Of a DNA stretch of 64,000 nt, positions 2,643 to 6,273 are shown in pieces. The notes below the pieces were generated by a model. That model was not told where the DNA came from. It was given only the letters and a program-made list of their open reading frames with translations, and ran no database searches. This DNA comes from Planctomycetota bacterium (lineage in GTDB: Bacteria; Planctomycetota; Planctomycetia; Planctomycetales; Planctomycetaceae): contig JAHZKX010000076.1 of assembly GCA_022600195.1 (NCBI GenBank), forward strand, positions 62,001-126,000, in the 5' to 3' direction. Every line of letters starts with the position of its first letter. The first letter of the stretch is position 1. The position numbers were made by a program, and so were the translations under genes.

Positions 2643-4364
2643 ATGACATCTCCAGAAGTCCCCAAGCGTTCTAAACTGGAACTTCTTAAAGATGGTAGCC
2701 GACAACTTCGCGGAACCATTGCTGAAGAATTACTGAATGACAGTGACGAATTCACCGGTGATTCATGCCAACTTTTGAAACATCACGGATCCTACCAGCA
2801 GGATGACCGTGATCTCAGAAAGGCCAAGAATCCAGATGGAACCCGCAAGGGAAAAGCTTTTAGCTGCATGATCCGCACCAGAGTTCCGGGAGGAAAAGTA
2901 ACCGCAGAACAGTTTCTGGCAGAATTGGATTTGTGTGATCAATATGGCGATGGGACCGTTCGCCTGACGACACGTCAGGGGTTTCAGTTACATGGTGTAA
3001 TTAAAGGCAATCTGAAAGCGGCCATCAAAGGAATCAACGATTCCAAATTAACCACTCTGGCTGCCTGCGGAGACGTCAATCGAAACGTGATGGCGTGCCC
3101 TGCCCCTTATAAAAATAATGCGATCTTCGATTCCATGCAGGATATGGCCTACGCGCTGGCAGAGCATCTCAAACCCAAAACGACTTCGTATTTTGATTTA
3201 TGGATCACAGACGAGGCAGGCAATAAAACAAACGAAGCAGAGTTTCAGCCGGTTGAAGAACCAATCTACGGTAAAGTTTATCTTCCCAGAAAGTTCAAAA
3301 TCGGCATCGCCTTACCTGAAGACAATTGCGTCGATATCTATACACAAGACATAGGCCTGCTTGCGATTGTCGAAAACGAGGAAATCATCGGTTACAACTT
3401 CTATGTTGGTGGCGGTATGGGAGTCACTCCCAGTAATAAAAAAACCTACGCGGCGCTGGCCAAACCTCTAGGCTTCGTGGAAAATGATCAGGTACTCGCA
3501 GTCGCTGAAGCGGTTGTAAAAGTCCAGCGTGATTTTGGTAATCGTGAAGACCGAAAACAGGCCCGGATGAAATATCTGGTCAACAATCTGGGCATCGAAA
3601 AGTTCCGTGAAAAGGTATCAGAATACCTGGGAGGCCCTCTTATAGCTCCTCGCGATATTGAAGTCACCGGCATCGATGATCACATGGGATGGCACGATCA
3701 AGGTGATGGAAAATTATTTTTCGGCGTGAACATCGAAAATGGTCGCATCAAGGATGAGGGCGATCTCAGAATCAAAACTGGCCTGCGAAAGATTTTGGAG
3801 ACTTATCAATTTGATGCACGGATTACTGCTAAGCAGAGTGTTATTTTTTGTGATATTGATCCTGCTGATCGAGATGCCATCGAGCAAATACTTGTAGATC
3901 ATGGGATGAAAAAAGCAGATGAACTGACTCTGATTCGACGATTTTCGATGTCCTGTCCTGCTTTACCAATGTGTGGATTGTCGGTCACAGAATCTGAGCG
4001 GGTACTGCCAGACCTGATCACAGAATTCGAAGAAGAACTGACGCGCCAGGGACTTCAGGGTGAGCGAATCTCAGTCAACATGACTGGATGCCCCAACGGC
4101 TGTGCCCGCCCTTATATTCCGGATATTGGTCTGGTTGGAAAAGCCGTCGGCAAATATACACTTTTTCTCGGCGGAAATTCGCTCGGAAACCGATTAGCTT
4201 TTATCTATGATGACATGGTCCCGCTGGGTGAAATCACCAGCAGGCTTTCTCCTCTACTGGAATACTATAAAGAGGAACGTCAGACCGACGAATCGTTTGG
4301 CGATTTTTGTCATCGAAAGGGCAAAGAGTCACTTCAGGAAAAAGCCGGCCTGACTGCGAAATAA
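2643..4364 (+). CDS. cysI: assimilatory sulfite reductase, siroheme/4Fe-4S hemoprotein
   Basis: This 573-residue enzyme should reduce sulfite to sulfide in six electron steps for cysteine synthesis. The two-fold nitrite/sulfite reductase architecture is visible. The [4Fe-4S]-siroheme cysteines are C438-x5-C444 (CPALPMC) and C483-x3-C487 (CPNGC), followed by the typical ARPYIPDIG segment. The ATG at 2643 has AGGA 8 bases upstream; a TTG at 2616 in the same frame has no such site. No flavoprotein (cysJ) is adjacent, so the electron donor, ferredoxin or a distant CysJ, cannot be told. cysH lies 16 kb away. I use cysI as a family-level name. Confidence 0.9.
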   Translation: MTSPEVPKRSKLELLKDGSRQLRGTIAEELLNDSDEFTGDSCQLLKHHGSYQQDDRDLRKAKNPDGTRKGKAFSCMIRTRVPGGKVTAEQFLAELDLCDQYGDGTVRLTTRQGFQLHGVIKGNLKAAIKGINDSKLTTLAACGDVNRNVMACPAPYKNNAIFDSMQDMAYALAEHLKPKTTSYFDLWITDEAGNKTNEAEFQPVEEPIYGKVYLPRKFKIGIALPEDNCVDIYTQDIGLLAIVENEEIIGYNFYVGGGMGVTPSNKKTYAALAKPLGFVENDQVLAVAEAVVKVQRDFGNREDRKQARMKYLVNNLGIEKFREKVSEYLGGPLIAPRDIEVTGIDDHMGWHDQGDGKLFFGVNIENGRIKDEGDLRIKTGLRKILETYQFDARITAKQSVIFCDIDPADRDAIEQILVDHGMKKADELTLIRRFSMSCPALPMCGLSVTESERVLPDLITEFEEELTRQGLQGERISVNMTGCPNGCARPYIPDIGLVGKAVGKYTLFLGGNSLGNRLAFIYDDMVPLGEITSRLSPLLEYYKEERQTDESFGDFCHRKGKESLQEKAGLTAK

Positions 4365-4451
4365 CGTTCTGACTCAATTAATTACGTAATTTACCCGAAC
4401 CCCTGAGCAATGAGGCTGTCCTACATTTTATCAATTTCAATCCAGAACGGG

Positions 4452-4480
4452 TTGACCGTGATTGATAGAGTAGGTAGATT
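4452..4480 (+). promoter_or_regulatory. sigma70-type promoter of the leu leader
   Basis: TTGACC at 4452-4457 and TAGATT at 4475-4480 are separated by exactly 17 bases, a good match to the housekeeping consensus. The predicted start near 4487 puts it about 50 bases before the leader peptide at 4540. Confidence 0.65.
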
Positions 4481-4539
4481 ATTTGAACAAAAGGCAGTCA
4501 GACTACTAATAGTGATAAAAAGCAAAGCTAGATGACCTG

Positions 4540-4605
4540 ATGCAAACTCACAATCGACTCAACTTGAACCTACTATTAAACCAGCTTACCCAAGCCAGGT
4601 CTTAG
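4540..4605 (+). CDS. leuL: leucine-rich leader peptide of the leuA attenuator
   Basis: This is a 21-codon open frame, ATG to TAG. Six of its codons encode leucine: CTC, TTG, CTA, CTA, TTA and CTT, at positions 7, 9, 11, 12, 13 and 16. Three of them (CTA CTA TTA) are consecutive. It ends 34 bases before a terminator hairpin and 144 bases before leuA. This is the classic composition of a leu operon leader peptide, in which ribosome stalling at Leu codons reports Leu-tRNA shortage. The ribosome binding site is weak. The frame is closed 22 bases upstream by a stop, so no longer protein is possible. Confidence 0.8.
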   Translation: MQTHNRLNLNLLLNQLTQARS

Positions 4606-4671
4606 GTTCTTTGTACGATTGTTAATCAAAAACAGCGAAACCCTGAGACCAGATTGGCCTCAGGGTTTTTT
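4567..4671 (+). promoter_or_regulatory. leuA transcription attenuator: protector, antiterminator and terminator segments
   Basis: Four segments can pair in alternative ways. Segment 1 (AACCTA, 4567-4572, inside the Leu codons) pairs with the end of segment 2 (TAGGTT, 4603-4608). Segment 2 (GGTCTTAGGTT, 4598-4608) pairs with segment 3 (AACCCTGAGACC, 4639-4650), with one G-U pair and one bulged C, as an antiterminator. Segment 3 alternatively pairs with segment 4 (4659-4668) as the terminator. A ribosome stalled on the Leu codons would cover segment 1, free segment 2, and allow read-through into leuA. Confidence 0.78.
4639..4671 (+). terminator. attenuator terminator before leuA
   Basis: A perfect 10-bp stem (AACCCTGAG-type arm from 4639 with CTCAGGGTT-type arm to 4668) is followed by a run of six T. 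It lies 80 bases before the leuA ATG and not directly behind the preceding gene, which fits a conditional terminator. Confidence 0.85.
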
Positions 4672-4749
4672 ATTTAACCTGCTGGTACTATTCTGGTCTC
4701 TCATTAGCTCTCTTCGACGGGAGTGGAAATTGATTCATGGAGAAAACCA

Positions 4750-6273
4750 ATGTCCAACGACACAGTAAAGATATTTGACACCACCTTGAGAGACGGTGAA
4801 CAATCGCCTGGTTGTAGTATGACAACCTCCGAAAAGATGAAAGTAGCCAGAGAGCTTGTCGAGTTGGGTGTCGATATTATTGAGGCGGGCTTCCCGATCG
4901 CATCACCGGGTGATTTCGATGCGGTTCGCAAAATTGCCAATGAATTCGGCAGCCAGAGTACAATCTGCGCTTTGGCCCGCTGCCGCAATGATGACATTGA
5001 TCGTGCCTGGGAAGCCATAAAAGGGGCAGAGAATTCGCGCATCCATGTGTTCCTCGCTACGAGTTCGATCCACCGCGAACATAAATTAAAAATGAACAAG
5101 GAACAAATCGTGGAAGCAGCCGTGGAAATGGTCAAACGTGCCCGCGATTATTGCCCGGATATTGAATTCTCACCTGAAGATGCTGCCCGAACAGAGAAAG
5201 ACTTCCTTTGTGAAGTCGTCGAAAAAGCGATTGAAGCCGGCGCAACAACTGTGAATATTCCTGATACAGTCGGCTATGCGACTCCGGCTCACTACCATGA
5301 TGTGATCACAACGCTGAAAAATAATGTATCCAACATCGATAAAGCCATCATTAGCACACACTGTCATAACGATCTCGGATTGGCTGTAGCTAACAGTTTG
5401 GCGGCAGTGGACGCAGGCGCTAGACAGATAGAATGTACAATCAATGGCTTAGGCGAACGAGCTGGAAACTGTGCCTTGGAAGAAGTCGTGATGGCTTTGA
5501 AAACACGATTTGACTATTACGGCTTACAAACGAATATTAATACAAAACGTCTGTACCCAATCAGTCACCTTGTCTCGACAGTCACAGGCATGACCGTACA
5601 ACGTAATAAGGCAATTGTGGGAAAAAATGCGTTTGCTCATGAAGCTGGCATTCACCAGCATGGAATGCTGCAGGAGCGCTCGACCTATGAAATCATGCGT
5701 CCGGAAGATGTCGGCTACGTCGGCACCAATCTCGTACTGGGCAAACACAGTGGTCGGCATGCCTTTCGTGATCGTATTCATTCATTGGGACATACTCTGG
5801 ATGATGAAACATTCGAGCGGATCTTCAATGAATTCATCACGTTGGCAGACAAGAAAAAAGAGATCTATGATTCAGACATTGTTGCCTTGATCGAGAATCA
5901 GGTCACTGACACGCCTGAAAAATGGAAAATTGTCCGGTTCCACACCTCTGCAGGGACAGGCACGATTGCTACTGCGACGATAGAACTGACCGATGAGAAT
6001 GAAAAGATCCACTGCGATGCAGCGACTGGTGATGGCCCTGTTGATGCTGTTTTTCGTGCTTTAGAACGAATCTCAGGAATCCCCGGGGTGCTGGAACAAT
6101 ACCATGTAGGCAGCGTTTCCAGCGGTAAAGATGCACAGGGTGAGGTAAGAGTCGAAGTACGCATTAAAGGAGAATTGTTTACTGGGCGCAGTGTGAGCAC
6201 TGATATTATCGAATCGAGTGCCAAGGCCTATCTGCAGGCCATCAACAAAGCAATCGCACTACAGGAAAGTTGA
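4750..6273 (+). CDS. leuA: LeuA: 2-isopropylmalate synthase
   Basis: This 507-residue enzyme condenses acetyl-CoA with 2-ketoisovalerate, the first committed step of leucine synthesis. The N-terminal HMGL-like barrel carries DTTLRDGEQSPG (residues 10-21), the metal-binding HCHND motif and NGLGERAGN. The C-terminal third matches the LeuA allosteric domain that binds leucine. ATG 4750 has GGAG 7 bases upstream; a GTG at 4723 sits directly against its purine run and is unlikely. Control is expected at two levels: enzyme feedback (family knowledge) and the leader attenuator at 4540-4671 (seen in the sequence). No other leu genes follow. Confidence 0.95.
   Translation: MSNDTVKIFDTTLRDGEQSPGCSMTTSEKMKVARELVELGVDIIEAGFPIASPGDFDAVRKIANEFGSQSTICALARCRNDDIDRAWEAIKGAENSRIHVFLATSSIHREHKLKMNKEQIVEAAVEMVKRARDYCPDIEFSPEDAARTEKDFLCEVVEKAIEAGATTVNIPDTVGYATPAHYHDVITTLKNNVSNIDKAIISTHCHNDLGLAVANSLAAVDAGARQIECTINGLGERAGNCALEEVVMALKTRFDYYGLQTNINTKRLYPISHLVSTVTGMTVQRNKAIVGKNAFAHEAGIHQHGMLQERSTYEIMRPEDVGYVGTNLVLGKHSGRHAFRDRIHSLGHTLDDETFERIFNEFITLADKKKEIYDSDIVALIENQVTDTPEKWKIVRFHTSAGTGTIATATIELTDENEKIHCDAATGDGPVDAVFRALERISGIPGVLEQYHVGSVSSGKDAQGEVRVEVRIKGELFTGRSVSTDIIESSAKAYLQAINKAIALQES

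Follow-up and report, generated by a model that had tools for sequence, protein, structure and literature searches.

Does the short leucine-rich frame ahead of a planctomycete leuA gene belong to a transcription attenuator, as an earlier note on the same DNA had proposed? The frame lies in the 64,000-nucleotide stretch that was analyzed here, which is called the window throughout, and the features discussed are collected in Table 1. The gene that the leader was said to precede is identified as leuA, for 2-isopropylmalate synthase, by two profile matches (TIGR00973, 743 bits; NF002086, 781 bits); its product serves the synthesis of leucine, the amino acid that would be sensed, and leuA is presumed to be the gene under control. 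The start common to the genus alignment is the ATG at 4750, not the GTG at 4723 given in the list of open reading frames. A sulfite reductase gene, co-directional with leuA, ends upstream at 4364, and leuC sits on a different contig of the same genome, so that the locus seems not to be part of a leuABCD operon. The promoter with 17-bp spacing was found exactly where it had been placed. Taken alone, a match of this quality is not above chance (two sites versus 1.9 expected); the pattern TTGACC-N17-TA[AG]ATT is conserved in 17 of 17 members of the genus Gimesia. Its distance to the leader is 87-90 nt in 16 of them and 180 nt in one, locus L013 of genome G010, where an insertion of some 90 nt has moved the promoter away from the leader.

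Table 1. Features of the leuA leader region (positions in the window).
Feature	Positions	Strand	Basis
Sigma70-type promoter, TTGACC (4452-4457), 17 nt, TAGATT (4475-4480)	4452-4480	+	9 of 12 consensus matches
Leader peptide frame MQTHNRLNLNLLLNQLTQARS, 21 codons + stop, six Leu codons	4540-4605	+	sequence; genus alignment
Segment 1, ACAATCG (4550-4556) and AACCTA (4567-4572), pairable with segment 2 and its 3' flank	4550-4572	+	folds
Presumed control codons CTA CTA TTA	4570-4578	+	genus comparison; role inferred
Segment 2, antiterminator 5' strand, overlapping the leader stop TAG (4603-4605)	4598-4608	+	folds; swap tests
CGATTGT, outer 3' strand of the 1:2 helix, genus-conserved	4616-4622	+	alignment; fold
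Intrinsic terminator, hairpin (4637-4669) and T-run (4666-4671)	4637-4671	+	fold, -19.1 kcal/mol
Segment 3, antiterminator 3' strand and terminator 5' strand	4639-4650	+	folds; covariation
Genus-conserved element between terminator and leuA	4682-4703	+	genus alignment
leuA, 2-isopropylmalate synthase, 507 codons + stop	4750-6273	+	TIGR00973 and NF002086 above cut-off

The leader frame reads as it had been described, with six Leu codons (CTC, TTG, CTA, CTA, TTA and CTT, in this order), three of them consecutive. Within Gimesia, the Leu codons are exchanged mainly for other Leu codons, except at codons 6, 13, 15 and 17; codon 12 is CTA in all 17 members, and codon 13 is Arg in nine of the 17. 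The choice among synonymous codons is strongly skewed, with CTA accounting for 63 of 305 leader Leu codons across 48 genera versus 1 of 950 in 29 leuA genes of the family, and for 60 of 132 in the Gimesia leaders versus 67 of 1439 in a set of 35 long window frames that may include non-genes. Since the CTA at 4573-4575 falls outside the AACCTA pairing described below, that pairing does not account for it. Most leaders have no Shine-Dalgarno motif before them (present in 11 of 48), compared with 280 of 2400 random windows and 28 of 42 leuA starts. In one Gimesia genome (G011; locus L014, also L213), the leader MHIHNLLNLSLLRNLLL ends four codons early, and segment 2 then follows the stop, as it does in genera with short leaders.

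The terminator that had been claimed downstream of the leader is present, its hairpin being followed by a T-run of six T. When leaders were collected with a looser cut (at least four Leu codons, within 700 nt upstream of leuA), 110 of 112 had a terminator within 170 nt, at a median of 33 nt past the stop, and 107 of these 110 terminators were below -15 kcal/mol, versus 22 of 1100 shuffles. In an alignment of 31 genera, 93.5% of the cells of the terminator helix are paired, with double changes in 8 of its 12 base pairs, and the helix covaries, as 32 cells are doubly changed versus 8.7 after shuffling and none of 500 shuffles reached as high a number. The stretch from the leader stop to the terminator (4606-4636) is near-invariant in the genus, which the outer pairs of the 1:2 helix explain only in part; outside the genus, little is conserved between segment 2 and the terminator. 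Between terminator and leuA, a further element, CTGGTACTATTCTGGTCTCTCA, is near-invariant across the 17 genus members. Within it, TGGTACTAT looks like an extended -10 sequence, and CTGGTCTC (4693-4700) is the exact complement of GAGACCAG (4645-4652) in segment 3; judging from these letters, the element could be a second promoter or take part in a fold that forms after the terminator.

An attenuator also requires an antiterminator, and the earlier note had paired a segment beginning at 4598 with one beginning at 4639. The pairing itself stands, as GGTCTTAGG (4598-4606) forms nine pairs with CCTGAGACC (4642-4650), whereas the detail of the fold differs: the partner lies at 4642-4650, and beyond the nine pairs the prediction gives a two-base bulge and then three more pairs. 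The RNA from 4590 to 4656, which represents the transcript before segment 4 exists, is predicted to fold as 2:3 (-17.7); once segment 4 is added, the terminator wins. With 33 genera aligned on the TAG stop, the antiterminator helix proved to be kept, 266 of its 297 cells being paired; a group of 10 with short leaders is left out of this count. Pairwise covariation was absent in these 33 genera (2304 of 5000 permutations as good) and again in a second test on 31 genera (180 of 500 shuffles as high), where the antiterminator pairing of 93.5% arises partly by construction because the genera were picked by their segment 2 motif. The evidence for matched partners comes from swap tests, the permutations of which ignore relatedness between loci. 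Across 48 genera, segments 2 and 3 pair better with their own partners than with swapped ones (z -4.7; 0 of 20000 permutations), the effect per locus being modest (mean -13.9 versus -12.3 kcal/mol). Among 59 leaders from outside the family, a set in which three leaders come from beyond the class, some are nearly identical to one another and one (L283) is an odd frame containing N, the test gave z -8.6 (0 of 20000 permutations; own -15.9 versus swapped -13.1), the own partner having a median rank of 12 of 59 and being best in 5 of 59. The kept helix and the swap tests together point to a pairing potential by which the antiterminator would be able to exclude the terminator. Segment 2 spans the leader stop codon in most genera; in the others, where the leader is shorter, it begins about 5 nt past the stop. 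A ribosome that has reached the stop could cover segment 2 in either placement.

The third pairing, AACCTA (4567-4572) opposite TAGGTT (4603-4608), is located as the earlier note had it. Own partners for segments 1 and 2 again beat swapped ones across 48 genera (z -4.2; 0 of 20000 permutations). Compared with synonymous recodings of the leader, the mean z of the 1:2 helix is -0.52, with 33 of the 48 genera beating the mean of their own recodings and six doing so at the 0.05 level. In the window, the helix is weaker than in most synonymous recodings (a fraction of 0.84 of 200 being as good or better); a long helix between segments 1 and 2 is still predicted by folding (-18.6 kcal/mol, z -2.66).

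How far does this arrangement extend? All 17 Gimesia genomes combine a leuA orthologue with a Leu-rich leader, the sequence of segment 2 and a terminator, the leader stop lying inside segment 2 in 16 of them, with L014 as the exception. A search pattern that joins segment 2 to the terminator arm has a single match in each of the 17 genomes. In the genome set used, the order of the window is represented by its family alone (170 genomes), from which 116 upstream regions were taken and two (L040 and L049) were dropped for truncated flanks, leaving 114. At least five Leu in 10 codons within 350 nt of leuA were found in 105 of these 114 regions, nine falling below the cut, versus 109 of 2280 dinucleotide shuffles. 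The signal is specific to leucine: Ser reaches five in 4 of 114 regions (5 of 114 in shuffles), Thr, Asn and Arg in one each and none of the other residues at all, so that none of the 19 non-Leu residues is in excess. It is also specific in place, a Leu-rich frame occurring on the reverse strand in 1 of 114 regions and at 350-700 nt upstream in 2 of 112. Under a joint criterion of at least five Leu in 10 codons and a nearby intrinsic terminator (at least five T in six) within 400 nt, 105 of 114 family regions qualify, versus 3 of 912 shuffles. Of 54 family genera with leuA, 51 were fetched and 49 examined, and 48 of the 49 have a leader and a terminator at the looser cut of four Leu; genera g25 and g2 are weak in this respect, and g55 is without.

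Outside the family, the class contributed 59 genomes, of which 57 were examined, from ten other families. One locus, L166, was dropped. The Leu cut is passed by 45 of the 57 regions and the joint cut by 33 (24 fail it), versus 16 and 0 of 855 shuffles. In loci drawn from named records, leader and terminator are present in 66 of 78 usable ones (2 of 80 being too short), a set that overlaps with the other genomes and hence is not independent; carriers include Thalassoglobus neptunius, Adhaeretor mobilis, Lacipirellula limnantheis, Fuerstiella, Planctomicrobium and Rhodopirellula, and Paludisphaera soli has the leader and, by the rule applied, no terminator. Judged by these sequence signatures, the attenuator is not confined to Gimesia and is widespread in the class. 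Among regions from outside the class, 5 of 17 pass the Leu cut and 3 of 17 the joint cut, versus 22 and 3 of 680 shuffles, and absence there is weakly tested because leuA was found in only 18 of 73 genomes at an E value of at most 1e-120. Four loci whose records are titled Kuenenia stuttgartiensis, Nealsonbacteria or Vicinamibacteria (L228, L235, L252 and L269) carry a planctomycete-type leuA with 62-71% identity and are perhaps mislabelled or misbinned assemblies. One family of the class, f3, was called Gemmataceae-like because a GGCCCCGG hairpin is common to it and to locus L275 (Gemmataceae), and a terminator by the rule applied was found in 6 of its 16 loci. For genus g60 of this family, the Leu cut is passed by 5 of 7 loci and the terminator rule by 1 of 7; in all seven (L195, L197, L203, L207, L345, L346 and L347), a very strong GGCCCCGG hairpin is followed by a T-tract that is weak, for example TTTCTGTTTC. 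Termination at the g60 leaders may depend on a factor or be of another type.

The runs of Leu codons that the earlier note expected upstream of leuA in relatives are thus present, and the covarying stems are present in part: the terminator helix covaries, and the antiterminator, which does not do so pair by pair, is supported by the swap tests instead. Its reading of the locus as a ribosome-mediated attenuator gains from the Leu-rich leaders, the covariation of the terminator, the matched segments 2 and 3, the codon bias and the lack of a conserved counterpart before the other genes compared in the genus. We consider it highly probable that leuA is controlled by a ribosome-mediated transcription attenuator that senses charged leucyl-tRNA. 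RNA polymerase would start near 4487, and a ribosome would then begin the 21-codon leader. With plentiful leucine, the ribosome would pass the Leu codons, reach the stop inside segment 2 and cover that segment, leaving segment 3 to pair with segment 4, and transcription would end at the T-run. If charged Leu-tRNA were scarce, perhaps most of all the reader of CTA, the ribosome would be expected to stall at codons 7 to 13, on segment 1; with segment 1 occupied, segment 2 would be free to pair with segment 3, no terminator would form, and leuA would be transcribed. If the leader were not translated, segments 1 and 2 would be expected to pair and the terminator to act. From this arrangement we infer where the transcript starts, that the leader is translated, that the ribosome stalls and in which direction leucine acts. 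The combination of leader and switchable terminator suggests, on the sequence evidence, that leucine is sensed through how fast the ribosome follows RNA polymerase.

Other roles can be imagined for the same elements. The leader might act on translation or mRNA stability, ribosome stalling altering access to the leuA start or cleavage by an RNase, with the hairpin serving as a processing or stability element rather than as a terminator. The g60 loci, with their strong hairpins and weak T-tracts, would fit such a role, as would the ability of the Gimesia element between hairpin and leuA to pair with segment 3. Against it stands the regular presence of a hairpin with a T-run after the leader in the 105 of 114 family regions; nor does the hairpin cover the leuA start, given that the two are 78 nt apart in the window. 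We regard control of translation or stability as unlikely. It is also conceivable, given the position of the hairpin between co-directional genes and about 270 nt past the upstream stop, that it terminates the sulfite reductase subunit gene and that the frame arose by chance. Leader and terminator, however, persist in other genera, a conserved promoter lies between the two genes and the Leu enrichment is far above that of shuffles. That the hairpin is simply the terminator of the upstream gene was rejected because this gene was not found upstream in 19 of 19 loci from other genera (searched up to 1400 nt, two with shorter flanks), and so little weight is left for this origin that it can hardly be credited.

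A conserved RNA structure before an amino acid biosynthesis gene could likewise indicate an RNA that binds leucine or tRNA directly, as a riboswitch or T-box does, the short frame being incidental; T-boxes have been reported before leuA in two Proteobacteria (PMC2494555, excerpt). In the same excerpt, the single planctomycete genome covered has 0 T-boxes, and the low conservation from segment 2 to the terminator outside the genus likewise speaks against such an RNA. No Rfam family reached its gathering threshold anywhere in the window, and a search of 4400-4800 with E up to 10 gave six hits, none of which reached its cut-off or belonged to a leader peptide or T-box family. The best of them, NrrF (E 0.0037), was dismissed, being on the minus strand and scoring 25.8 bits against a cut-off of 60. 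A direct sensor of this kind thus seems very improbable.

Similar leaders were sought at other amino acid genes in the genus loci, within 450 nt upstream and without a shuffle control, and no conserved cognate leader with a terminator was seen before ilvB, leuC or trpE. At trpE, 15 loci have at most one Trp in 10 codons, and at a second trpE-like gene, four loci have at most two. Four of 16 leuC loci have five or six Leu, one of them (L316) with a weak hairpin nearby (-10.0). With Leu, Ile and Val pooled, 9 of 16 ilvB loci reach five, and a hairpin below -8 is found in two (L301, -11.0; L303, -13.1). L303, the ilvB region of the genome of the window, has seven such residues in 10 codons with its hairpin downstream, an arrangement that is not conserved in the other 15. 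A leuA paralogue with 43% identity reaches five Leu in 0 of 13 upstream regions.

The element resembles the leu attenuator of Salmonella and E. coli in its short leader, in its Leu codons that include CUA and in the competition between antiterminator and terminator. The enterobacterial leu leader has an Rfam family of its own. The planctomycete element, in contrast, has no Rfam match, and its segment 2 overlaps the leader stop in most genera. The preference for CTA appears common to the Salmonella and the planctomycete leaders, and replacement of three CUA by CUG in the S. typhimurium leader reduced its sensitivity (Carter et al. 1986, as cited in the excerpt of PMC1183508). The ilv-leu attenuator of Staphylococcus aureus, compared by description only, is alike in its Leu-rich leader and intrinsic terminator and differs in preceding ilvD and a whole operon, in a member of the Firmicutes; a rise in expression upon leucine depletion has been reported there (PMC5794164, excerpt). 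The actinobacterial LEU element shares a run of Leu codons in a short frame before leuA, but it contains a pseudoknot and a stem that involves the Shine-Dalgarno box of leuA, and mutations of the Streptomyces element did not fit classical attenuation (PMC1262725, excerpt); the planctomycete locus has an intrinsic terminator.

The earlier note knew of no description of such an attenuator in a planctomycete, which agrees with our literature search of titles and the beginnings of abstracts (PMC2965389 and PMC8632094 among them), where no planctomycete leucine attenuator was found; supplements and the one relevant survey, that of Lopatovskaya et al. 2010 (doi 10.1134/S0026893310010164), lay outside its reach, and the survey might hold planctomycete predictions. 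In the portion available, PMC2864571 mentions Planctomycetes once, concerning a different RNA, and Korolev et al. 2016 (PMC4833913) treat planctomycete leader genes by distance statistics, with leucine absent from the part of the main text available. The planctomycete element thus appears to be a classical leu attenuator by kind and new by place, a probable leucine attenuator spread over much of a class of another phylum.

Classical attenuation depends on a ribosome that translates the nascent RNA close behind the polymerase, and a working attenuator would make the coupling of transcription and translation testable by a simple reporter; we estimate that the switch demands a ribosome within some 60 to 100 nt of the polymerase. 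Transcription and translation have been reported to be physically separated in Gemmata obscuriglobus (Gottshall 2014, as cited in excerpts of PMC6212462 and PMC5394234), and the cell model behind that claim is disputed (PMC6554331, excerpt). We lean, with some reserve, towards the view that leucine attenuation is ancestral to Planctomycetia, including the Gemmataceae-like families, and that the ribosome is accordingly close enough to RNA polymerase on leuA to pick between nascent folds. If the attenuators work, leuA at least would be transcribed and translated together, and the attenuator would then report genetically on coupling in bacteria that have been proposed to keep the two processes apart in a nucleus-like manner.
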